A stretch of 64,000 nucleotides of DNA from Verrucomicrobium sp. (GTDB taxonomy: Bacteria; Verrucomicrobiota; Verrucomicrobiia; Methylacidiphilales; UBA1321): contig JAFIGT010000003.1 in assembly GCA_017849585.1 (NCBI GenBank), positions 1-64,000 of the forward strand. The letters are read 5' to 3'. A program made the translations under genes and the position numbers. The notes under the pieces were generated by a model. The model did not search any database. It was not told the DNA's origin and saw nothing but the letters and a program-made list of their open reading frames with translations. The stretch's first letter is position 1, and each line of letters opens with the position of its first letter. Below are positions 23,372-44,225 of the stretch, piece by piece.

Positions 23372-24895
23372 ATGAAGACCATAGGTTATCGCAAGCGTAC
23401 AACGCTGATTCTCTTTTTTCTTCTGCTTTTCCGCTTCTGGGTGGGCCAGACCTTCGAATTGAGCGGACGCGAATCCTACCTGTGGTTGCTGGGCCATGGA
23501 CCGAATCTCGATTGGGGTTATTTAAACACCGGCGTGCTCGTGCCGTGGCTCATTCGCTTGGGAACTGTCTTTTTTGGCAATACGGAACTCGGTGTCCGCT
23601 GGCTGGCTGCGGTGATTTATTCCTGCTCCGGGTTTGTCATCTTCTGGTGCGCGCGGCGTTGGTTCAATCCAGCCTCGGCATTCTGGACGATGATCATTTT
23701 TGTCTGCACGCCGCTTTTCACGTGGCAGTTGCTGCTCATGAATGAGGCTACGGCCAGCTTTGGTCTCATGGCGCTGGCATTACTGGCCTATCGGGAAGCG
23801 GTCAATAGCGACAAGTGGCTCTGGTACATCGCCGCAGGGGCGATCTCGGGTTTGGCGATTCACGTGCTTTGGTTCAACATGATCTGGCCGCTGGGCCTAT
23901 TGCTCTACTACTTCATCGAGCCTCGCCGTCGCCAACTTTTGAAACATTGGCAGCACTGGGTCATGCCAGCGACCGTACTGATCGTCTCAATCCCGATTTT
24001 CCTCTGGTACCAACGTCCGGAAATGGAAGGCTTGAAGAAGCTGCACCCGCTGCCCATCAGCGGCATCTCCCACGGCTTTTCCCTGCTGGCGGGATTAGAG
24101 TTCACGCTCACGCAGATCTGGCTGTTGAGCCCGGCATTTTTCCTCGGCATGCTGCTGGCCTTCTACTACGCGGGCTCGATCACTTTCCGCCACCATCGCT
24201 ACGCCCTCTTACTGTGCATTTGCCTGCCAGGACTGTTGATTCAATACGTCTGTTCCTTCTTTCATGCTGCCAATGCCGACGCGATGCCGGCTCTCTATTT
24301 ACCGGCATTATTCCTGGCAGGTAATCTCTGGGCCAGCTTTGCGCAACGCGAGACCCGTTGGAAATGGATCGGAGTGGGGCTGCTCACCTTGGCGGGGCTG
24401 CAATCACTTGGTGGGTTGATCCCGGCCACAAATCCTTATGTGGGATTTGGCAGTGGACTTTATCCGTCCTATTCCTACCGCGATCTTGCCGATGAAATGA
24501 CGCGCCGCATGCAGGAAAAAGGCGCCACAGTGGCGGTGGCGGAAGATGCGGAGACGGCGAGTGCGCTCACCTTCTATCTGCCACGCCATCAACTGGCCTA
24601 TGTGGTCGCCCGGCATGGTGTACGCAGTCAGTTTGACTTCTGGCCCAACTACGACGACTTCAACGGATACAATTTTATTCTCGTCACGAGTGGAAATCGT
24701 CCCGCTCCGTCGATTTTCACCAAGGGATTTTTCAAGGTGGACCCGATTGGCGATGCGCAGATTCCCGGCTCGGAAAGCATGGGTTGGCAGCTCTTTTTTT
24801 GTGAGAATTTCCAAGGTGGCGTGGGCGGCACGCTCAAGGAAATTCCCGCCGAAGCCGTGCGTGATCTGGAGAGCTCCACGCCATTGCCGAAATGA
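23372..24895 (+). CDS. GT39/ArnT-like membrane glycosyltransferase
   Basis: A 507-aa polytopic protein with about eleven hydrophobic segments followed by a C-terminal periplasmic domain of about 130 residues. The first loop after helix 1 (FELSGRESYLWLLGHGPNL) has the acidic residues expected of GT-C enzymes, and the helix topology matches the dolichyl-phosphate-mannose-protein mannosyltransferase/ArnT group (PMT_2). It probably transfers a sugar from a polyprenyl carrier on the outer face of the inner membrane. It is divergent from the LolA-like gene across a 126-bp gap. The acceptor is unknown. Confidence 0.75.
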   Translation: MKTIGYRKRTTLILFFLLLFRFWVGQTFELSGRESYLWLLGHGPNLDWGYLNTGVLVPWLIRLGTVFFGNTELGVRWLAAVIYSCSGFVIFWCARRWFNPASAFWTMIIFVCTPLFTWQLLLMNEATASFGLMALALLAYREAVNSDKWLWYIAAGAISGLAIHVLWFNMIWPLGLLLYYFIEPRRRQLLKHWQHWVMPATVLIVSIPIFLWYQRPEMEGLKKLHPLPISGISHGFSLLAGLEFTLTQIWLLSPAFFLGMLLAFYYAGSITFRHHRYALLLCICLPGLLIQYVCSFFHAANADAMPALYLPALFLAGNLWASFAQRETRWKWIGVGLLTLAGLQSLGGLIPATNPYVGFGSGLYPSYSYRDLADEMTRRMQEKGATVAVAEDAETASALTFYLPRHQLAYVVARHGVRSQFDFWPNYDDFNGYNFILVTSGNRPAPSIFTKGFFKVDPIGDAQIPGSESMGWQLFFCENFQGGVGGTLKEIPAEAVRDLESSTPLPK

Positions 24896-31171: not shown

Positions 31172-31176
31172 TTTTG

Positions 31177-32118
31177 ATGACTTTCCGCTGTGGCCCGCTA
31201 TGTCAGAACACTGTGGGTCACGACGTTCAACTTCCATCCGATTCAAGCGGGCATCCTACTCGATCCCGCTTTTATTATCCAGCACCACTTTTGTATCTGG
31301 CGTTGGTGCTGGTCCTGGCCGGGTTGCTGGCTCCGGTCTTCTACTGGGTGGCTGACCACTGGATGCAGGCGCCTTTTTCGCGATACGTCAATCGGGCGTT
31401 GATGGTGTCCGCACTGTTGGCGCTGCTGCCCTATTTTATCAAGAACTGGCGACTGCTCGGCATGGGGTGGCACCGGACCAGTCGCCGCGATTTACTACTC
31501 GGCGTGGGAATCAGTCTGGCCTCCGTAGGGATTGTCTTGCTGATGCATCAACTCAGCGGCTCCCGGCAATGGACGGGGCAGTTGACCCTGAAGACCGCGC
31601 TCGGCGCGGCGGTCACGGCGCTGTTGGTGTCGCCTCTGGAAGAACTTCTTTTTCGCGGCGCGATTCAACGCTCACTTATCGTTCGATTGGGTGCGTTCGC
31701 GGGTTGGTTGGTCACGGGACTCTTTTTTGCGAGCGTTCATTTCATCAAGGTGCCCCGCAGTTTTCAGCCGGACCCGGTCACATGGCTCTCCGGGTTTCAT
31801 TCCCTCGGGTTGGCTCTCGCGCCGTTGGGGCGTCTCGAGACCTACGGCAGCGCCTTCTTTTGCCTGCTCGTGGTGGGGTTGATTTTGGGCTGGATGGCCG
31901 TGCGCACGCGGCATCTCTGGTTGTCGATCGGTTTGCATGCCGGCTGGATTGTCGGATTAAAATGCGGCTCCAGCTTGAGCGAGCCGACCAAGCGCGCGTC
32001 CGATTTGATTGGCGGCAGCGACCTCCTCAGCGGCGGCTTGACGCTCATCATGCTCGCCCTGCTAGGATTGGCTCTGTGGCGCTTCTATCCCTCCCAACCC
32101 TCCGCGATTGGGGACTGA
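31177..32118 (+). CDS. CPBP-family intramembrane glutamic endopeptidase
   Basis: A membrane protein of about 313 aa with seven to eight hydrophobic segments. The CPBP (Abi/Rce1-like) motifs are SPLEELLFRGAIQRS (EExxxR), FASVHF (FxxxH) and SIGLHAGW. Such proteases process prenylated or bacteriocin-like peptides or act in regulation. The start is uncertain: ATG 31177 lies 5 bp from the divergent accA start, and a GTG at 31213 is also possible. The C-terminus overlaps the start of comF. Confidence 0.8.
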   Translation: MTFRCGPLCQNTVGHDVQLPSDSSGHPTRSRFYYPAPLLYLALVLVLAGLLAPVFYWVADHWMQAPFSRYVNRALMVSALLALLPYFIKNWRLLGMGWHRTSRRDLLLGVGISLASVGIVLLMHQLSGSRQWTGQLTLKTALGAAVTALLVSPLEELLFRGAIQRSLIVRLGAFAGWLVTGLFFASVHFIKVPRSFQPDPVTWLSGFHSLGLALAPLGRLETYGSAFFCLLVVGLILGWMAVRTRHLWLSIGLHAGWIVGLKCGSSLSEPTKRASDLIGGSDLLSGGLTLIMLALLGLALWRFYPSQPSAIGD

Positions 32119-35401: not shown

Positions 35402-37192
35402 ATGAAAACACCCCGTCAGGAAGTTGAAGCCATCGTTGCCGCCACGGCGCAAACCTTGTACGGAGCCGACGTCAGTGCCGGTCCCTACGTGCGTCCCTGT
35501 CCCGACACGCGTCATGGCGATTTCCAGACCAACCTCGCCATGGTGCAGGCCAAGAAGGCCGGGAAAAATCCACGCGAACTTGCGCAGCAAATTGTCGACG
35601 CCCTCGCGGAACATTCCGTATTTGAAAAGCCCGAGATCGCCGGACCCGGCTTCGTCAATTTCCGCCTCAAGGCTGGCTATTGCGCCGCGCAGACCCACGC
35701 CCGCTCGCAGGATCAACGCCTCGGCATCGAGCCCGCCGCGCAACCGCTCAAGGTCGTCATCGACTACAGCGGTCCGAATATCGCGAAGGAACTGCATGTT
35801 GGTCATCTCCGCAGCACGATTCTCGGCGACTCCCTCGCGCGCCTGTTCCGCTTCCTCGGGCACAACGTCATTTCCGATAATCATCTCGGTGACTGGGGCA
35901 CGCAATTTGGCATCGTCATCCTCGGCTACAAGCGCGACACGAACAAGGAGCGCTTCGAGCAAGACCCGATCGGCTACCTCGAGGAAGTCTACGTCCGCAC
36001 CCAGAACGCCTCCAAGACCGACGACACCATTCGCGAGGCGGCCCGCGCGGAACTCGTCAAGCTGCAGGCGGGCGATCCCGAGAACGTCGCGCTCTGGAAG
36101 AGCTTCATTGATCATTCCCTGCAAAGCCTCGACCGCACCTACTCGCGGCTCGATGTGAAATTCGATTACACCCTCGGCGAAAGCTTTTACAACGACCGTC
36201 TTCCCGGTGTGGTGAAAACCCTGCTCGATGCCGGTATCGCGCGTGAGACCGAGGGGGCCATCGCCGTTTTCTCCGACGGCACCTTGCCGCAAAAAGATGA
36301 TCCGTTTATCGTCACGGAAAAAGGCGGCGCGTTCCGCGATAATCCGTTCCTCATTCGCAAATCAGACGGCGGTTTCAACTACGCCACGACCGATCTTGCA
36401 ACGCTCCAGTATCGCAAGGAACATTTCCATGCGGACCGTGTGATCTACGTCACCGACAGCCGCCAGCAGATGCATTTCGCGCAGCTTTTTGCCACGGAAA
36501 AACGGTGGAATCTTGGACTGAACCTGCAACACGTCTGGTTCGGCGCGATTCTCGGCGCGGATAAAAAACCGCTCAAAACCCGCGATGGCGGCACGGTCAA
36601 ACTCCGCGCCCTCCTCGACGAAGCGCAGGAACGCGCGGAAAAGATCATCACGGAAAAAGAAGCCGAACGGGCGGCGCGCGAAGGCGAGAATTTTGTCCCG
36701 AAGGGTGACGATCAGCGTCGCGATCTCGCGCAGGTCGTCGGCATTGGCGCGCTCAAATACGCCGATCTCGCGCAGAATCGCAATCTCGATTACGTCTTCA
36801 ACTGGGATAAATTGCTGGCGTTCGACGGCAACACCGCGCCCTACTTGATCAACGCCTACGTCCGCATCCGCGCCATTTTCCGCAAGCTCGGTTCCGAAGC
36901 GCCGCCGGTGGAGCGTCTCGTGCTCGCGGAGGAAGCGGAAATCGCGCTCGCCAAAAAGCTGCTCGATTTCGGTGACTCTCTGGCGCTTGCGGCGGATGAA
37001 TATCGTCCGCACTATCTTTGCGTCTACCTGTTCGAACTCGCGGGACTCTTCCACAAGTTCTACGAACATTGTCCGGTGCTGATTTCCGAAGGCGAAACGA
37101 AAACGAGCCGTCTCGTGCTCTGCTCACTCACTGCGCAGACCTTGAAGACGGGGCTCGCCTTGCTCGGCATCAAGACCGTCGAGCAAATGTAG
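35402..37192 (+). CDS. argS: Arginyl-tRNA synthetase
   Basis: A 596-aa class I synthetase. The N-terminal Add1 domain ends near residue 100, the HIGH-type motif is ELHVGHLRSTILGD, the catalytic fold includes FNYATTDLATLQYR and KKPLKTRDGGTVKL (the KMSKS region), and the DALR anticodon-binding domain forms the C-terminus. Its TAG stop codon is the start of a REP-like hairpin. Confidence 0.96.
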   Translation: MKTPRQEVEAIVAATAQTLYGADVSAGPYVRPCPDTRHGDFQTNLAMVQAKKAGKNPRELAQQIVDALAEHSVFEKPEIAGPGFVNFRLKAGYCAAQTHARSQDQRLGIEPAAQPLKVVIDYSGPNIAKELHVGHLRSTILGDSLARLFRFLGHNVISDNHLGDWGTQFGIVILGYKRDTNKERFEQDPIGYLEEVYVRTQNASKTDDTIREAARAELVKLQAGDPENVALWKSFIDHSLQSLDRTYSRLDVKFDYTLGESFYNDRLPGVVKTLLDAGIARETEGAIAVFSDGTLPQKDDPFIVTEKGGAFRDNPFLIRKSDGGFNYATTDLATLQYRKEHFHADRVIYVTDSRQQMHFAQLFATEKRWNLGLNLQHVWFGAILGADKKPLKTRDGGTVKLRALLDEAQERAEKIITEKEAERAAREGENFVPKGDDQRRDLAQVVGIGALKYADLAQNRNLDYVFNWDKLLAFDGNTAPYLINAYVRIRAIFRKLGSEAPPVERLVLAEEAEIALAKKLLDFGDSLALAADEYRPHYLCVYLFELAGLFHKFYEHCPVLISEGETKTSRLVLCSLTAQTLKTGLALLGIKTVEQM

Positions 37193-37257: not shown

Positions 37258-39000
37258 TTACTTCACCTCGTACGGCAGATGTTCGCCGTTGAGCACCGTA
37301 TACGGCGGCATGGGGGGCTGGGCGTTCGGATCGGCGGAGAAACCCCAGGTGATCGTCACCCCTGGCGCGAGAACAACTCGGCTTCCGCGCGCGTAATAAG
37401 CGATCCATCCGGTGCGAAAGGGATCGGCATCGGTCACATAGTAAGTCTTCTCCGGATGTTGTCGCACCTCGTCATAAATGGCGCGCATCGTGGACGTATT
37501 CTGGGGAAGGGAATCGTTGCTCGAGATCATGTTTTTCCATGCCAACGCGCTCGACAGGAGCGAAATCAGTACCAGACCAATCAATGCCATGCGCAGCGGC
37601 AACTGCCACCTCGCATGCAGGGAATGATCCAGTTGGGTCCACGCGTAAGCCAGCAACACGAAGAACAGCGGCAGAAAGGTCGTGACGATTTTAAAGAAGA
37701 TATAGTGCTTGAACGTGGGCAGGGCGAGCAGCAGCAGCGGCCAGAACGCAATCAGAATGGCCATGACGGTGAGGTAGCGGCTCTTCATGCGGCGGTGAGT
37801 CCACAAGGCCCAAGGGATAAGCACCAAAAATGAGAGGGCGAGGGTCAGGGTCAATGCGTTGATACAAGGGAAGTTGCGGCTGTCGATGGTGGCGAAAAAA
37901 AGCTGTCGCCAGCCGCGCCAGGTGCCACTCTGGTTCGACATGATTTCCTGCCATGAGGGCATGACTTTAAAGGTGTAGCGGTAGACTTCGCTCACGGCAA
38001 AAAACATGCGGGGAAGGAAAAGGCTGACCATCAGGAGGGAGGCCAGCGCATTGACTCCGAGCATTCGCCAAAGTCGGATATCGCGCCCATTGGCCAGTGT
38101 CAGCCATAGGACCAAAAAAACCATCGCGATCCACGGGAAAAGTTCCGTGTAGGTCATGAACACGTAACTCAACAGTAAAGCGGGCGCCAGTCGCAGTTTG
38201 GATAAATCATGTCGATGATTCCACAATAGAAGAGTGAGGGTCGGGAGAACAAAAAGAACGGCGGAGTTGGCCAGAAATGAGGTGGTGGAAGAGTAAGTGA
38301 TGCCGTTGGACACTCCCAGCCAGATGGCGAATATCCACGCCATCGGACGGGAGAGATTCAACAGCCTGAGGCAGGCGAAGACCGAGAGGGAGAGAAGGGC
38401 AATAAAAAAGACAGATACCACGCCAAAGACGCGAGCCGTGTCCACGTGCAGAAGTGTGGCGAGGTAGCCGATGGGCATTTCCGGTCCGAGCCGTTCGCGG
38501 AGGAAGGCATACGGCGCTTGCAGCCATGGGGCATTGCGCCCGGCGGAGGGGGAAAGTCCAATGGGGTTTTCCACAAGGAATTGACTGATGTTGATGTACA
38601 AAAAATGGTCGATATGACCCGAGGCAAAGTAATGGCCCGGACCTGCGAAAAAAAGAGGCATTCCCTGTAGCGAAAAAATGAGGGCGAAAACAGACAACCC
38701 CAGACTTTCTTCAGTAGTCCATCTCCGATATCGGCTCTTCAGGATCAGTCCCAGCCCCGTGATCGCCACGGTGAGAGCGGCCCACGCGGAATACTTCAAT
38801 GGAATATGCAGATAGAGAAGGATGAGTAGAAAGATCGTAAATCCACACAAGCCAAGAAGGGTGCGGACGAGATGGTGAAATCGACGGCCTTTCTCCGGAA
38901 GAGCCTGCAGAGCTGCCAGCACTTCACCCCAGCCCCGAAAGGTCAGCAGCAGGAGCAGTGCTTGAAATCCGACTTCTACAATCGAGAGTGCGAAGGTCAT
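37258..39000 (-). CDS. Polytopic membrane protein, tandem paralog 2
   Basis: A 580-aa protein with about twelve to thirteen hydrophobic segments and a C-terminal extracytoplasmic domain of about 85 residues ending QPPMPPYTVLNGEHLPYEVK. I do not recognise a named family. The topology and a loop with acidic/His residues (FASGHIDHFLYINISQFLV) recall GT-C glycosyltransferases. It starts 3 bp after the stop of its upstream paralog; the two share PGxYxxxGxIDxxxY and the PPYTxLxGE end. It is the last gene of the nadD-rsfS operon. Confidence 0.65.
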   Translation of the reverse strand: MTFALSIVEVGFQALLLLLTFRGWGEVLAALQALPEKGRRFHHLVRTLLGLCGFTIFLLILLYLHIPLKYSAWAALTVAITGLGLILKSRYRRWTTEESLGLSVFALIFSLQGMPLFFAGPGHYFASGHIDHFLYINISQFLVENPIGLSPSAGRNAPWLQAPYAFLRERLGPEMPIGYLATLLHVDTARVFGVVSVFFIALLSLSVFACLRLLNLSRPMAWIFAIWLGVSNGITYSSTTSFLANSAVLFVLPTLTLLLWNHRHDLSKLRLAPALLLSYVFMTYTELFPWIAMVFLVLWLTLANGRDIRLWRMLGVNALASLLMVSLFLPRMFFAVSEVYRYTFKVMPSWQEIMSNQSGTWRGWRQLFFATIDSRNFPCINALTLTLALSFLVLIPWALWTHRRMKSRYLTVMAILIAFWPLLLLALPTFKHYIFFKIVTTFLPLFFVLLAYAWTQLDHSLHARWQLPLRMALIGLVLISLLSSALAWKNMISSNDSLPQNTSTMRAIYDEVRQHPEKTYYVTDADPFRTGWIAYYARGSRVVLAPGVTITWGFSADPNAQPPMPPYTVLNGEHLPYEVK

Positions 39001-39003
39001 TTT

Positions 39004-40764
39004 TTATAAAGGCGGAATGGGGCGCGGCGGTTGTTCTCCATCGAGGATCGTGTAGGGCGGCGGCGGTGGCGGCTGCAGATTTTCCTCGGAGGTGAGCCAG
39101 TTGGGGAAGATCACTTCCTGCCGCGTGTAGACTTTCGAATGGCGCGCATGATACGCGATCCAGCAGGCGAGGTAGCGGTCAGGAGTAGTGAGATAGTAAG
39201 TTTCCTCCGGATGCTCGCGGACGTAATTGTAGGTGGCCAGGGCGGCAGGCGCATTGCACGGCAGTTGACCCGCCATACCAATCACGGTGCGCCAGACGAT
39301 GAGGCTGGAGAGCAGGGAGCTGCCAATCATCAGGGCGAGGTAAGCGACGACTCCCATGCGCAGCACAGGACTGCGCCGTGCTGAAAAGCGCCCGAGTTGC
39401 TGGAATCCCACCACAATTAGTATCAGAAAAACCGGCAGGAACGTGAGGCAGAGCTTGAAGAAGATGTAAGCGCGAAACGGTACCGTCACGAGCAACAGGA
39501 GCGGCCAGCAACTCGTTCCTACGGCGAGAAGAATCAGATAGCGGTTCCGGAATTTAGTGGAAGAGAAGAGACCGAACAGAGTCACCGGAATGAGCCCAAT
39601 CGCGAGCCACATCATCAGTTCATTGATCCATGGGAAACGCGCACTTTGGATGTCCGCAACGAAAAGCTCGCTCCATCCCTGCCAGTGGCCCCATTTCGGA
39701 TTCATGGAGGCCGGAATTTTGAATGCATTGCCGAGTTGTCGATGGAGGAAATCCAGCAGGCGTGGAAGATAGGGCAGGCTCAGTACGGTCGTAATTACCA
39801 GTGTGATGGCCGTTAGTTTCCCGAACCGCAGTTTACGTCCTTTCGCCAGCAGGAGAAATTGCAGCAGAACCACCAGCGCGATGAAGGGGAATAATTCCGA
39901 ATACGAGCAAAGTGTGTACGCCAGCAACAAGGCGGGCAGCAGGCGCAAGGCCTCCGGGTTTTGCCGGTTGTGCCAGAGGAGACCCACCAGCAGAGGAGCT
40001 ACGAACAGGACTGATTGACTTGAAAGATAGGCGGTGGGGGAATTTAAAGTGATCGCATGGGTGAGTCCCAGCCAGAACGCTCCGGCCCACGCCAACAGCG
40101 TGGAAACGCTGAAACGGCGCAGCGTAATAAAAGCGCTCGCGGATAACAGGGCGAGAAAGAAAGTCGCCACCGTGCCAAAGAGCCGGTGTGTATCGCAGTG
40201 CAGCAAGACGGCGGGATAACCAAGCGACATGAACACGCCCAATCGTTCCTGTCGCGTCGGTACCGTGAGTTGCTGCCATGGTTCGGTTTGGGACGGGACG
40301 GCAGGGTGATCGATCGAGTTTTCAATCAGGAACTGGCACAGTACCGTATAATTGAGTTGATCGATCTTGCCGATGCCGTAGTAGGTTCCCGGTCCGAGCT
40401 TGAGAATAGGCACGCTCTGCAACAGGAATACGATCAGAAAAAGAGCCGCCGCCAGGGAGTCATCCCGGAACCAGCGTGGCGCGCGGCAACGGCTCGGCAT
40501 TTTCCAGCGAAGCCCCCAACCCATCAGGCCCACCAGCAGCGCCAGCCACGCGGAATACCGCAGTGGCACCTGGGCGTAGAGCAGTGCGAGTAGAAAGAGG
40601 GTAAAAGCGCTCAGCCCGGCGGTGAGGTGAACTATCCAGACGAATCGACCCCGCGGCGCGGGGATCAGTCGTCCGGCGGCCAATGCATAGCCCCAGCCTT
40701 GAAAAGTCAGCAGGAGAAGAAAAATCTGCAACGCCACTTCCCCGAGGGCGATTGCGATGGCCAT
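39004..40764 (-). CDS. Polytopic membrane protein, tandem paralog 1
   Basis: A 586-aa protein with the same layout as the next gene: twelve to thirteen hydrophobic segments, a first large loop with PGTYYGIGKIDQLNYTVLC, and a C-terminal domain ending PPPPPPYTILDGEQ. It starts 16 bp downstream of rsfS on the same strand. The pair arose by duplication. A GT-C glycosyltransferase or O-antigen-ligase-like role is possible by topology only; no catalytic motif is certain. Confidence 0.65.
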   Translation of the reverse strand: MAIAIALGEVALQIFLLLLTFQGWGYALAAGRLIPAPRGRFVWIVHLTAGLSAFTLFLLALLYAQVPLRYSAWLALLVGLMGWGLRWKMPSRCRAPRWFRDDSLAAALFLIVFLLQSVPILKLGPGTYYGIGKIDQLNYTVLCQFLIENSIDHPAVPSQTEPWQQLTVPTRQERLGVFMSLGYPAVLLHCDTHRLFGTVATFFLALLSASAFITLRRFSVSTLLAWAGAFWLGLTHAITLNSPTAYLSSQSVLFVAPLLVGLLWHNRQNPEALRLLPALLLAYTLCSYSELFPFIALVVLLQFLLLAKGRKLRFGKLTAITLVITTVLSLPYLPRLLDFLHRQLGNAFKIPASMNPKWGHWQGWSELFVADIQSARFPWINELMMWLAIGLIPVTLFGLFSSTKFRNRYLILLAVGTSCWPLLLLVTVPFRAYIFFKLCLTFLPVFLILIVVGFQQLGRFSARRSPVLRMGVVAYLALMIGSSLLSSLIVWRTVIGMAGQLPCNAPAALATYNYVREHPEETYYLTTPDRYLACWIAYHARHSKVYTRQEVIFPNWLTSEENLQPPPPPPYTILDGEQPPRPIPPL

Positions 40765-40779: not shown

Positions 40780-41127
40780 TTAGGAAACTACGGGCGCGTC
40801 ACCCCAAAGTTCTTCGAGGGCGTACAGCTTGCGCTTGGTTTCATGGAAGATGTGGACGAGTACATCGCCGTAATCGACCACGATCCACTGGCTGGCGGGA
40901 AAACCGTCCGTTGCCATCGGACGCACGCCATAGTCATCCTTCAACGTCTTTTCGAGCGCATTGGCGATGGCCTTGAGCTGCGGTTCGGATTGGGCGGAGA
41001 GAATGACGAAGTAATCGGTCATGCTCGCGATGTCACGCAAGTCGATGATGACAGGGTTAAGGGCCTTTTTCTCGAGGGAGATTTCGCGGCAGAGTTTGGC
41101 GAGGGCGAGTCCGGAAGGTTTTTTCAC
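40780..41127 (-). CDS. rsfS: Ribosomal silencing factor RsfS
   Basis: A 115-aa protein of the RsfS/YbeB/Iojap family, which binds ribosomal protein uL14 and blocks subunit joining under starvation. Core signatures are VIDLRDIASMTDYFVILS, and ASQWIVVDYGDVLVHIFH. I chose a GTG at 41125-41127, just after the nadD stop; an ATG at 41169 would overlap nadD by 38 bp and make an unusual N-terminal extension. The nadD-rsfS order is common in bacteria. Confidence 0.88.
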   Translation of the reverse strand: MKKPSGLALAKLCREISLEKKALNPVIIDLRDIASMTDYFVILSAQSEPQLKAIANALEKTLKDDYGVRPMATDGFPASQWIVVDYGDVLVHIFHETKRKLYALEELWGDAPVVS

Positions 41128-41131
41128 AAGT

Positions 41132-41734
41132 TCAATAGTAGAGATTCTGTCGTTGAATATAAGCGGCAACCGGGGCGGGTACGAGAGGAATCAGTGGTAA
41201 TTTTCGTTTCGCCCGGGCGCGCACTTCGGATGCGGATATATCGACCCGGCGCGGTTCCGGCAAGCGGATAACGCCGGACGGGAGGCGTTTCTCCCCGTCG
41301 CCGCGCTCCAGCACGGCAAAGGTCACGAGCTGCCGCAACTCCCGGTAACGCTCCCAGGTGGTCAGTTTTGGCAACTGATCCGCGCCGATCAGCCAGAACA
41401 ATTCCGCGCGGGGGAAAGCCTCCCGAATCTCGGTGGCCGTATCGATGGCGTAGGACGGGGCGGGACGGTCGATTTCGCAGCGGGACACCCAAAAGTGAGG
41501 CAACCCCCGCACCGCCGCGCGCAGCATGGCCAGCCGGTCCCGGGAACTCGCCGTCTGGCGTCCGACTTTGTGCGGGGATTGGGCACACGGGACAAACAGC
41601 ACCGCATCCAGTTGCAATTGCTCCCGGGCGTCACTGGCGAGGATCAGGTGGCCGAGATGCACCGGATCAAAGGTGCCGCCATAGATGCCCAGTCGTAAGG
41701 AGCGTGAATCAGCGTGTGGCAACTGTTTAGTCAT
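41132..41734 (-). CDS. nadD: Nicotinate-nucleotide adenylyltransferase
   Basis: A 200-aa NAD biosynthesis enzyme. The nucleotidyltransferase motif GGTFDPVHLGHL is at about residues 19-30; SPHKVGRQTASSRDRLAML binds substrate and VDISASEVRARAK contains the ISSTxIR-like motif. It heads a four-gene minus-strand operon with rsfS and two membrane-protein genes. Confidence 0.93.
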   Translation of the reverse strand: MTKQLPHADSRSLRLGIYGGTFDPVHLGHLILASDAREQLQLDAVLFVPCAQSPHKVGRQTASSRDRLAMLRAAVRGLPHFWVSRCEIDRPAPSYAIDTATEIREAFPRAELFWLIGADQLPKLTTWERYRELRQLVTFAVLERGDGEKRLPSGVIRLPEPRRVDISASEVRARAKRKLPLIPLVPAPVAAYIQRQNLYY

Positions 41735-41801: not shown

Positions 41802-43142
41802 ATGCCGTCCGTTTATAACGATTACGTTCTGTCGACTTCGCTGGCCCAAGGGTGGATCAGTGCGGAACAACAATCGGCTGCTGCACATGCCTTGTCCCAG
41901 TTGCCCGGTGTCTCCGCGCTTGATTTTCTCCATGAGCAACAACTCCTTACTTCCGCCCAATACGATTTGCTGCGTGAAGCCATTGCCGACGCCCAGGCTT
42001 CCCACGCGGGCGAGACGGCCTCTTCCGCCACGTCGCAGGTGACGGTGGGACATACCGCCGTGGAGCCATTTGCCGAGGGATTTTCCCACGTTGATGACTT
42101 CCTGCGTTACGCACAGCAGCTCGGGGCTTCCGATGTGCACCTCGGCGTCAGTGCGCCACCGCTTGCGCGTCTGCACGGACGACTCCAGCCGATGTGGAAT
42201 GGCGCGCCGAACATGGATGCGCGTCACACGGAATCGCTGGTCCGCGGTTTCCTCACCGAGCCGCAATGGAAGCTGCTGCACGAACAGCGCTACCTCGAAT
42301 TTTCCTATTCCGTCGAAGGCATGGGCCGTTTCCGTACCAGCGTCGTTCACCAGCGCAAAGGACTCGATGCGGTTTTCCGTATCGTCAACAGCACCGTCAA
42401 GAGCATGGATGAACTCGGTCTGCCGAACGTGCTCAAGACGTTGACCAAGTATCACAACGGACTGGTCCTCATCACCGGCCCGGTGGGCAGTGGTAAATCG
42501 ACCACCATGGCTGCGATGATCGACGAAGTGAATCGCGAACGCCGCGATCACATCATCACGCTGGAAGACCCCATCGAATACCTCTTTGATTCCAAAGGCT
42601 GTCAGGTCACGCAGCGCGAAGTGCACACGCACACCGAGTCATTTGCCGCCGCCTTGCGCGGTGCCTTGCGCGAAGATCCGGATGTGATCATGGTCGGGGA
42701 AATGCGCGATTTGGAAACCATCCAGCTTGCCATCACCGCCTCCGAAACCGGTCACTTGGTGCTCGGCACGCTGCACACCAGCAGCGCCGCCCGCACGCTC
42801 GACCGCGTGCTCGACGCCTTCCCGATCGAGCAGCAATCGCAGATCCGCGTCATGGTGGCCGAATCGCTTCGTGGCATCGTCAGCCAGCAGCTCGTCCCGA
42901 AAGCCGACGGCAGCGGACGCGCTCTGGCCATGGAGATTTTGATCAACGTCCCGGCCGTGGCTTCGCTCATCCGCGACGCTAAGACCTTCATGCTGCCCGG
43001 CGTCATGCAGACCGGCAAACGCCACGGCATGCGACTGATGGACGATGCCCTGCTCGACTTGCTCCACCAAGGCATCATCTCGCCCGATGAAGCCTTCGAT
43101 CGCGGCGACCAGAAGCGCCTGTTCGAACCCTACCTCAAATAA
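41802..43142 (+). CDS. PilT-type ATPase with N-terminal extension
   Basis: A 446-aa ATPase of the type IV pilus retraction family. About 85 N-terminal residues (LAQGWISAEQQSAAAHAL and similar) resemble the helical N-terminal module of GspE/MshE proteins. The core has LGASDVHLGVS, Walker A GPVGSGKST, the Asp box TLEDPIEYLF, Walker B EDPDVIMVGEMRDLETIQ and His box LGTLHTSSA. It is followed 15 bp later by a second PilT-type gene. No other type IV pilus gene is adjacent. Confidence 0.88.
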   Translation: MPSVYNDYVLSTSLAQGWISAEQQSAAAHALSQLPGVSALDFLHEQQLLTSAQYDLLREAIADAQASHAGETASSATSQVTVGHTAVEPFAEGFSHVDDFLRYAQQLGASDVHLGVSAPPLARLHGRLQPMWNGAPNMDARHTESLVRGFLTEPQWKLLHEQRYLEFSYSVEGMGRFRTSVVHQRKGLDAVFRIVNSTVKSMDELGLPNVLKTLTKYHNGLVLITGPVGSGKSTTMAAMIDEVNRERRDHIITLEDPIEYLFDSKGCQVTQREVHTHTESFAAALRGALREDPDVIMVGEMRDLETIQLAITASETGHLVLGTLHTSSAARTLDRVLDAFPIEQQSQIRVMVAESLRGIVSQQLVPKADGSGRALAMEILINVPAVASLIRDAKTFMLPGVMQTGKRHGMRLMDDALLDLLHQGIISPDEAFDRGDQKRLFEPYLK

Positions 43143-43157
43143 ATTCCAGACACTGCC

Positions 43158-44225
43158 ATGGCCGAAATCGATAAATTTTTTCACGTGCTGGTGGAGCACA
43201 AGGCCTCCGATTTGCACCTTGCTGAAGGACAGCCGCCCAAGATCCGCCTGCATGGCGACATCCAGCCCATTCGCGAGGAAGTGCTCACCCATTCGGAAAT
43301 GGAGCGACTCCTCAGCGAAATCGCCGGTCACGACCGCTGGCAAATGTATCGCAAAAAAGGGGATCTCGACTTTGCCTACGAAATGAGCCACGAGGCGCGT
43401 TTCCGTTGCAATTACCTCAAGCAGGTCCACGGTTACGGCGCGGTCTTTCGTTTGATCCCGACCAAGATCGCCACGATTGAAGACCTCGGCATTCCGCCGG
43501 TCATCAAACGTTTCGGCCATCTCACCGGCGGTCTGGTCCTCGTCACCGGCCCGACCGGTTCCGGTAAGTCGACCACGCTCGCCGCGCTCATCGACTACAT
43601 CAACGTCAACTTCCACAAACACATCGTCACCATCGAGGAGCCGATCGAATTTGTGCACGAGAACAAGCTCAGCGTCATCACCCAGCGCGAAGTGCCCGAG
43701 AATGCCACCTCGTTCGCCTCGGGATTGCGTGCCGCCCTGCGCGAAGATGCCGACGTCGTGCTCGTCGGTGAAATGCGCGACTTGGAAACCATCTCCCTCG
43801 CGCTCACCGCGGCGGAAACGGGCCTTCTCGTCTTCGGCACCCTGCACACGAACAATTCCCGCAAAACCGTCGATCGTATGATCGACGTGTTTCCCGCCAG
43901 CCAGCAGCCGCAGGTCCGCACCATGCTCTCCGCCTCCCTGCGCGGCATCGTCGCCCAGTTGCTGCTCAAACGGTGCGACGGCGGTGGCCGTGTCGCGGTG
44001 AATGAAATTCTGATCGCGAACAACGCCGTCTCCGCCATTATCCGCGAAGGTGCGCCGGAAAAACTCACCGACGTCCTCATCAGCGGTCGCGGCATGGGCA
44101 TGCAATTCATGGACGACGCCATCATGGACGTCCTCAAGCAAGGCATCGTCAGCCCGACGGAAGCCTACATGAAGGCCATCGACAAACAACGCTTCGAGCC
44201 CTACCTCGAAGGCGCTCCTCACTAG
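43158..44225 (+). CDS. PilT-type twitching motility ATPase
   Basis: A 355-aa protein of normal PilT length. HKASDLHLAEGQPPKIRLHG starts the PAS-like domain; Walker A is GPTGSGKST, the Asp box is TIEEPIEFVH, Walker B is EDADVVLVGEMRDLETIS and the His box is FGTLHTNNS. It probably powers pilus disassembly, perhaps as a PilT/PilU-type pair with the preceding gene. Confidence 0.9.
   Translation: MAEIDKFFHVLVEHKASDLHLAEGQPPKIRLHGDIQPIREEVLTHSEMERLLSEIAGHDRWQMYRKKGDLDFAYEMSHEARFRCNYLKQVHGYGAVFRLIPTKIATIEDLGIPPVIKRFGHLTGGLVLVTGPTGSGKSTTLAALIDYINVNFHKHIVTIEEPIEFVHENKLSVITQREVPENATSFASGLRAALREDADVVLVGEMRDLETISLALTAAETGLLVFGTLHTNNSRKTVDRMIDVFPASQQPQVRTMLSASLRGIVAQLLLKRCDGGGRVAVNEILIANNAVSAIIREGAPEKLTDVLISGRGMGMQFMDDAIMDVLKQGIVSPTEAYMKAIDKQRFEPYLEGAPH

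Follow-up and report, generated by a model that had tools for sequence, protein, structure and literature searches.

Two membrane-protein genes that follow rsfS, the gene for the ribosomal silencing factor, raise the question of what their products do and whether a place in a housekeeping operon means that both copies matter. They lie in a stretch of 64,000 nucleotides from Verrucomicrobium sp. (assembly GCA_017849585.1, contig JAFIGT010000003.1, positions 1 to 64,000), hereafter the window, and encode the polytopic proteins P0002 (39004..40764, 586 aa) and P0001 (37258..39000, 580 aa). On balance, we lean towards reading the pair as GT-C-like extracytoplasmic glycosyltransferases of an uncatalogued family that use polyprenyl-phosphate sugars, where we infer the enzymatic activity, donor, acceptor and fold. 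Such enzymes would probably attach sugars to cell-surface molecules.

A tandem pair of paralogues behind rsfS

Both open reading frames (ORFs) are intact and lie on the minus strand, downstream of rsfS (40780..41169, minus strand; Pfam PF02410, 3.4e-28) and of a nadD-type, cytidylyltransferase-like gene (41132..41734, minus strand; PF01467, 1e-27) that starts the apparent operon, as an earlier sequence-only reading of this DNA had proposed. That reading had also described tandem paralogues of about 580 residues adjoining rsfS. Indeed, P0001 and P0002 share 41-42% identity across their full length (E 4.3e-129, far above chance), lie 3 bp apart and share the stretch PPYT[VI]L[ND]GE close to the C-terminus, given earlier as PPYTxLxGE; only the gap between the rsfS stop and P0002 had to be corrected, from 16 to 15 bp.

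Searched singly against Pfam, NCBIfam and the PDB sequences, neither protein matched a family, and the earlier admission that none could be assigned was right at the level of sequence. Since no Pfam or NCBIfam match to a known GT-C family was found, we term the family GT-C-like and do not file it in any named one; judged by these two libraries and limited literature searches, it appears to be uncatalogued. A literature search on rsfS, nadD and Verrucomicrobia found nothing relevant. Weak matches to PetG, DUF3290, DUF4131 and DUF2079 were discarded as being under the Pfam cut-offs.

Conserved residues on the predicted outer face

We aligned P0001 and P0002 with six homologues (alignment A3) and set a 14-helix topology by hand from hydropathy peaks and low-confidence models, with both ends outside. 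Hydropathy gave 11 peaks above the threshold used, compared with the 14 helices set by hand and the twelve to thirteen first proposed. Lysine plus arginine per residue was 0.19-0.26 in inside loops versus 0.07-0.10 outside in all eight members, in keeping with the positive-inside rule, although with hand-set helix bounds this checks consistency and does not amount to a prediction made independently.

Seven charged or histidine residues are invariant in all eight proteins: D131, R170, D187, E286, K437, H515 and R538 (P0001 numbering). Six of them fall in outside loops, although D187 and E286 sit at hand-chosen borders; K437 comes fourth in helix 13, counted from its outer end. In the inside loops of P0001, 0 of 29 charged or histidine residues are invariant. 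The longest inter-helix loop of this hand-set topology spans residues 119-187 of 580, in the first half of the protein (38440..38646, minus strand), and holds D131, R170 and D187. The proposed catalytic residue D131 (codon 38608..38610, minus strand) stands directly before a predicted helix at 132-144, and its P0002 equivalent D135 (codon 40360..40362, minus strand) is the second residue of a helix at 134-148, the predicted local distance difference test score (pLDDT) being about 30 in both. One check suggested earlier was for an acidic residue conserved in the first loop, and the aspartate found there in 8/8 members would fit GT-C. The loop motif around it reads DQxNY or DQxNS in P0002 and in members from another family of the class (f12), with DQLNY of P0002 near the family consensus DQxNY; it reads DHxLY in P0001 (DHFLY) and in the protein of a genus-mate, G002. 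The extracytoplasmic C-terminal part, residues 492-580 of P0001 (37261..37527, minus strand), carries the invariant H515, W532, Y535 and R538 and the PPYTxLxGE stretch, in place of which the f12 members have a longer C-terminal part.

Each copy was also left out of the alignment in turn. P0002 then departed from 7 columns that are invariant in the other members, and P0001, with the G002 protein omitted as well, from 15. Because no departure hits a charged invariant position, both P0001 and P0002 may be active here. Between P0001 and the G002 protein, nonsynonymous divergence (dN) was 0.125 and synonymous divergence (dS) 0.71, a sign of selection that we count in favour of the GT-C-like reading.

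Likeness to known GT-C enzymes

On the predicted topology, the pattern would resemble that of the GT-CA enzymes (GT39, GT57, GT66, GT83, AftB). These are likewise polytopic, keep their conserved residues on the outer side, have an aspartate at the first loop helix and carry an extracytoplasmic C-terminal part. At several homologue loci, the family also has GT2 or GT-C genes near it. Unlike the GT-CA enzymes, the P0001/P0002 family has no detectable sequence membership, and three helices are predicted ahead of the putative first helix of the core. The N-terminal core of GT-CA enzymes comprises seven helices, the first two of them separated by two loop helices; for such a core, the low-confidence models of the pair give a hint at most. 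According to the available excerpt of PMC12041299, all GT-CA enzymes have an essential aspartate at the tip of juxtamembrane helix 1, and in the excerpt of PMC10920833 every conserved residue of the GT-C families defined there lies on the outer face.

A second likeness, by description and not by sequence, is to GT136 (ORF12 of Citrobacter youngae) and Gtr-type three-component systems, in which, as far as the excerpt of PMC11127046 goes, a GT-C enzyme with an extra C-terminal extracytoplasmic domain acts on O antigens alongside a polyprenyl-phosphate-sugar synthase and a flippase. The GT2 enzyme beside one f12 homologue (that of G710) could be the lipid-sugar synthase that these systems need by the same account, but no flippase gene was identified beside members of the P0001/P0002 family. 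PMT_2 proteins (PF13231) are, by family, polytopic extracytoplasmic lipid-sugar enzymes too, and one of them overlaps a family member in G733, whereas none of P0001, P0002 and the six homologues matches PF13231 at E up to 1.

The genes around most of the homologues outside the genus point the same way. Glycan or GT-C clusters occur at four of the six homologue loci outside the genus. The G733 homologue overlaps its PMT_2 gene by 4 bp (PF13231 2.1e-7, above the cut-off), and that of G400 lies two genes from a GT2 gene (PF00535 4.7e-27). The G659 locus combines GT2 and PF00534 glycosyltransferases with methyltransferases and a Wzt-type ABC ATPase (PF14524 4.7e-12), and the G710 homologue adjoins its GT2 gene (2.2e-27) near PF00534 glycosyltransferases, an epimerase and a UDP-sugar dehydrogenase. 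The window's own genome has a relative of the G710 GT2 at 61% identity and 9 PMT_2 matches, 7 of them above the cut-off.

Under the favoured reading, a GT2 enzyme would load a sugar onto undecaprenyl phosphate in the cytoplasm, and the lipid-sugar would then be flipped across the membrane. P0001 and P0002 would bind the lipid-sugar phosphate through invariant basic residues, for which R170, K437 and R538 are candidates, and D131/D135 at the first loop helix would deprotonate the sugar of a surface glycan that serves as acceptor. An N-terminal extension would be formed by helices 1-3, helix 4 being the putative first helix of a GT-CA-type core.

Evidence against, and competing functions

A number of results weigh against this reading. 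All eight members searched against Pfam and NCBIfam (CAZy not searched) gave a best E of 0.0085, to unrelated families only, and the A3 profile against the PDB returned nothing relevant, namely a light-harvesting peptide (0.014) and noise. In hhalign, the alignment of the family with four PMT_2-type proteins covered 108 columns at a probability of 19% (E 0.0012, valid for this single pair), and those with two G400 neighbours reached 3.3% and 0.4%. Taken alone, the contrast of invariant charged residues outside versus inside reaches only p = 0.075 (Fisher). From two AlphaFold runs of three sequences each, the models have low pLDDT (42.4 and 46.7). Foldseek ranked PglB first for the P0001 model, but with E 0.062 and a TM score of 0.14, and placed ArnT third for the P0002 model (E 1.3), after two G-protein-coupled receptors (GPCRs). 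In the VIA list for P0001, 9 of 50 rows are titled as GT-C-containing structures (oligosaccharyltransferase, glycosylphosphatidylinositol transamidase, AftD, ArnT; the subunit that each chain represents is our inference), and 8 of these 9 begin at model residues 94-98, in helix 4. However, GPCR and designed-filament rows begin at residues 94-96 as well, so the helix-4 register is not specific. For P0002, 1 of 50 rows is GT-C-titled, and most of the others are GPCRs, designed proteins or further kinds of membrane protein; this near-absence excludes nothing. We take the fold matches as a hint and do not rely on them. As to gene context, the pair itself sits among housekeeping genes in the window, the G116 homologue is beside apparent nuo genes (judged by eye), the broken G663 copy is not within an evident glycan cluster, and G400 and G733 are not independent because they belong to the same genus.

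The alternative that survives best, which we still regard as unlikely, is that the proteins act on lipid-PP-oligosaccharides, either as ligases or as Wzy-type polymerases similar to those of GT-C3, instead of transferring single sugars. WaaL and Wzy proteins (GT-CB, clans GT-C1 to GT-C3) are likewise polytopic, with outer-face conserved arginine, histidine and aspartate, and belong to surface-glycan clusters, where homologues of the pair were found too. The excerpt of PMC10920833 describes clan GT-C3 as having a long loop near the N-terminus with two conserved arginines, one aspartate and one histidine; R170, R538, D131 and H515 and the long first-half loop would suit this (GT122-124 were compared by description only). 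For O-antigen ligases, the same excerpt places the long conserved loop, with two arginines and a histidine, near the C-terminus, so a ligase is not the better match for proteins whose loop lies in the first half, a position described there for GT-C3 only. Against both a polymerase and a ligase, the family has in addition invariant D187, E286 and K437 and a C-terminal extracytoplasmic part. One homologue cluster also holds a Wzt-type ABC exporter, and this export route needs no Wzy.

A polytopic transporter, flippase or structural membrane protein lacking glycosyltransferase activity would agree with the failure to match any enzyme by sequence or by a confident fold, and with models that are about as similar to generic helix bundles as they are to GT-C proteins, but is a little less probable again, since the invariant D, R, E, K and H outside, the long first loop and the C-terminal domain look catalytic in our judgement and PMT_2 and GT2 genes are adjacent at several homologue loci.

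A rare family and an apparent accessory insertion

Homologues were found in one genus-mate, G002 (metagenome-assembled genome Tous-C9LFEB, locus L005), and in f12, where 6 of 150 sampled genomes carry one; judging from their ORFs, five genes are intact and encode 712-751 aa, whereas the sixth is in pieces. This last copy, in G663 (L061:3548-5852, minus strand), is broken over several frames, and the family gene therefore seems to be lost there. The family occurs in 2/62 genomes given for the order (the window's own and G002) and in 4/384 sampled genomes of the class, own genome counted; P0002 alone as query matched 4/387 genomes of the phylum, own counted, one of them being noise with stop codons. 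Short matches in G013 and G195 were likewise dropped as noise because of stop codons inside. Within the sampled genomes, the family is rare and patchily distributed.

Further searches gave no other relatives. By tblastn, P0001 had no match in plasmids and P0002 none in phages, and viral contigs searched with A1 yielded 66 pattern stretches and no relative. Beyond the phylum, one exact-pattern contig scan with P0001 found only the G002 locus and did not return the f12 homologues, which are in the 30% class. In G001, another genus-mate (79% complete genome), no family match was seen anywhere and other ORFs come after rsfS. A tblastn search of the stretches after rsfS in G001 and five other genomes of the family or order found the pair absent, and membership in a nadD-rsfS operon was not conserved among these relatives.

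Altogether the pair looks like an accessory insertion behind rsfS. It had been argued that retention of a duplication in a housekeeping operon suggests that both copies matter. This is weakened, in that the genes are accessory, present in few genomes of the order, reduced to a single gene in G002 and missing from G001, although both copies may be active; that both are kept because they are essential is rejected, or at least weakened, by the single hybrid of G002 and the absence from the relatives' rsfS stretches.

The base composition does not mark the pair as foreign. Its GC content at third codon positions (0.676 and 0.684) falls within the 0.669-0.777 of nine neighbours and gives no clear signal, and foreign composition was rejected or at least weakened as an explanation. 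Nor did we find signs of the pair's own promoter (0 promoter-like sites) or terminator (6 terminator-like sites versus a shuffle mean of 5.9).

A probable chimeric single gene in G002

G002 carries one intact family gene, after the same 15 bp rsfS spacer and with an upstream flank like that of P0002. Its first 60 nt match the start of the P0002 gene (40705..40764, minus strand) at 55/60 positions and P0001 at 40/60. The next four blocks favour P0001, by 37 versus 34 and then by 47 versus 27 and 47 versus 32 in the two blocks that close the 240 nt displayed, and most of the gene is of the P0001 type. At informative sites, the first 18 are all P0002-like, as are 105 among the remaining 706, a pattern that 0 of 10,000 permutations reach.

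The divergence along the gene is a mosaic. In nine flanking genes, dS between the window and G002 is 0.16-0.37, and the first 20 codons of P0002 give 0.30. Codons 21-400 of P0001 (37801..38940, minus strand) lie well over these flanks, with 0.92-2.11 in windows of codons 21-280 and 0.59-0.61 in 281-400; then follow 0.28 in 401-460, 1.47 in 461-495 and 0.64 in 546-580. Codons 496-545 (37366..37515, minus strand) show 98% nucleotide identity and a dS of 0.06, which is not significantly under the flanks (p = 0.3). At fourfold sites, 61/124 differ in codons 21-280 versus 254/1486 in the flanks, about three times as many (p = 7e-15), whereas codons 401-460 (4/26, p = 1) and 496-545 (2/27, p = 0.3) do not differ from them.

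In a midpoint-rooted tree with fully or well supported branches, P0002 falls outside (P0001, G002), and these three stand apart from the f12 proteins; the branches at the P0002 split are 0.73 and 0.64 versus 0.09 and 0.17, and the letter make-up of P0001 was flagged. As the tree places P0002 outside, the paralogues would predate the divergence of the alleles of the two species. On these sequences, the plain reading would be recombination at an accessory insertion, between copies in G002 and between strains. In the sister species, recombination near codon 20 would later have reduced the locus to a single chimeric gene, a direction of change that we propose.

Two other accounts appear improbable, to a similar degree. 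Firstly, the chimera could be an assembly artefact, with both species carrying two genes: G002 is metagenome-assembled, and mixed strains could give mosaic divergence. However, the window's two genes share at most 9 nt exactly in their first 110 nt and at most 13 nt anywhere, stretches too short for the usual k-mer join to be plausible (the lost G002 copy itself was not seen). In addition, the junction is in frame in an intact gene behind the same spacer, and no second copy was found in G002, which is 89% complete. Secondly, G002 could retain an ancestral single gene, the window's species having gained a divergent copy by insertion; with no relative found in G001, there is no outgroup to order gain and loss. 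But P0002 branches outside (P0001, G002) in the rooted tree, and similarity of the G002 gene to P0002 at background level is confined to the first ~60 nt, a switch not expected from that history.

Beyond a recombined insertion, one could imagine a surface-glycan switching cassette behind a housekeeping gene, in which strains exchange alleles and recombine two GT-C-like paralogues. We consider this doubtful; if true, the cassette would arrive at a single hybrid enzyme of altered specificity and would resemble serotype conversion, with neither phage nor glycan cluster involved.

Neighbouring genes

The pair faces argS, which lies on the opposite strand, is directed towards it and shares 95.6% identity with the argS of G002. 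Between the window (35402-37192, plus strand) and G002 (L005:7849-9606), argS shows an 11-codon in-frame length difference and is otherwise 93% identical. Upstream, nadD overlaps the listed TTG start of rsfS by 38 bp (41132-41169). The rsfS matches in relatives start at residue 10-22 in 26 of 29 cases, only the three of this genus starting at 1, so the true rsfS start may lie downstream. Divergent from nadD are two adjoining ATPase genes (41802-44225, plus strand), about 45% alike in a cross-comparison with G002; the second of them has a counterpart in G002 that matches T2SSE (PF00437). Elsewhere on the plus strand, the window encodes an Rce1-like CAAX protease-type membrane protein (31174-32118; PF02517, 2e-15) and a 507-aa PMT_2 protein (23372-24895; PF13231, 7.2e-18), about 12 kb from the pair.

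Implications

The insertion looks ordinary in kind, combined with an uncatalogued family and a neat chimera. The locus also illustrates that a housekeeping neighbourhood does not make a gene housekeeping. If our reading is right, the GT-C-like proteins, which probably decorate the surfaces of bacteria, would gain an uncatalogued family of patchy occurrence in which a few residues stand out as targets for mutation, and the hybrid gene of G002 would serve as a natural experiment on which part of the protein matters.

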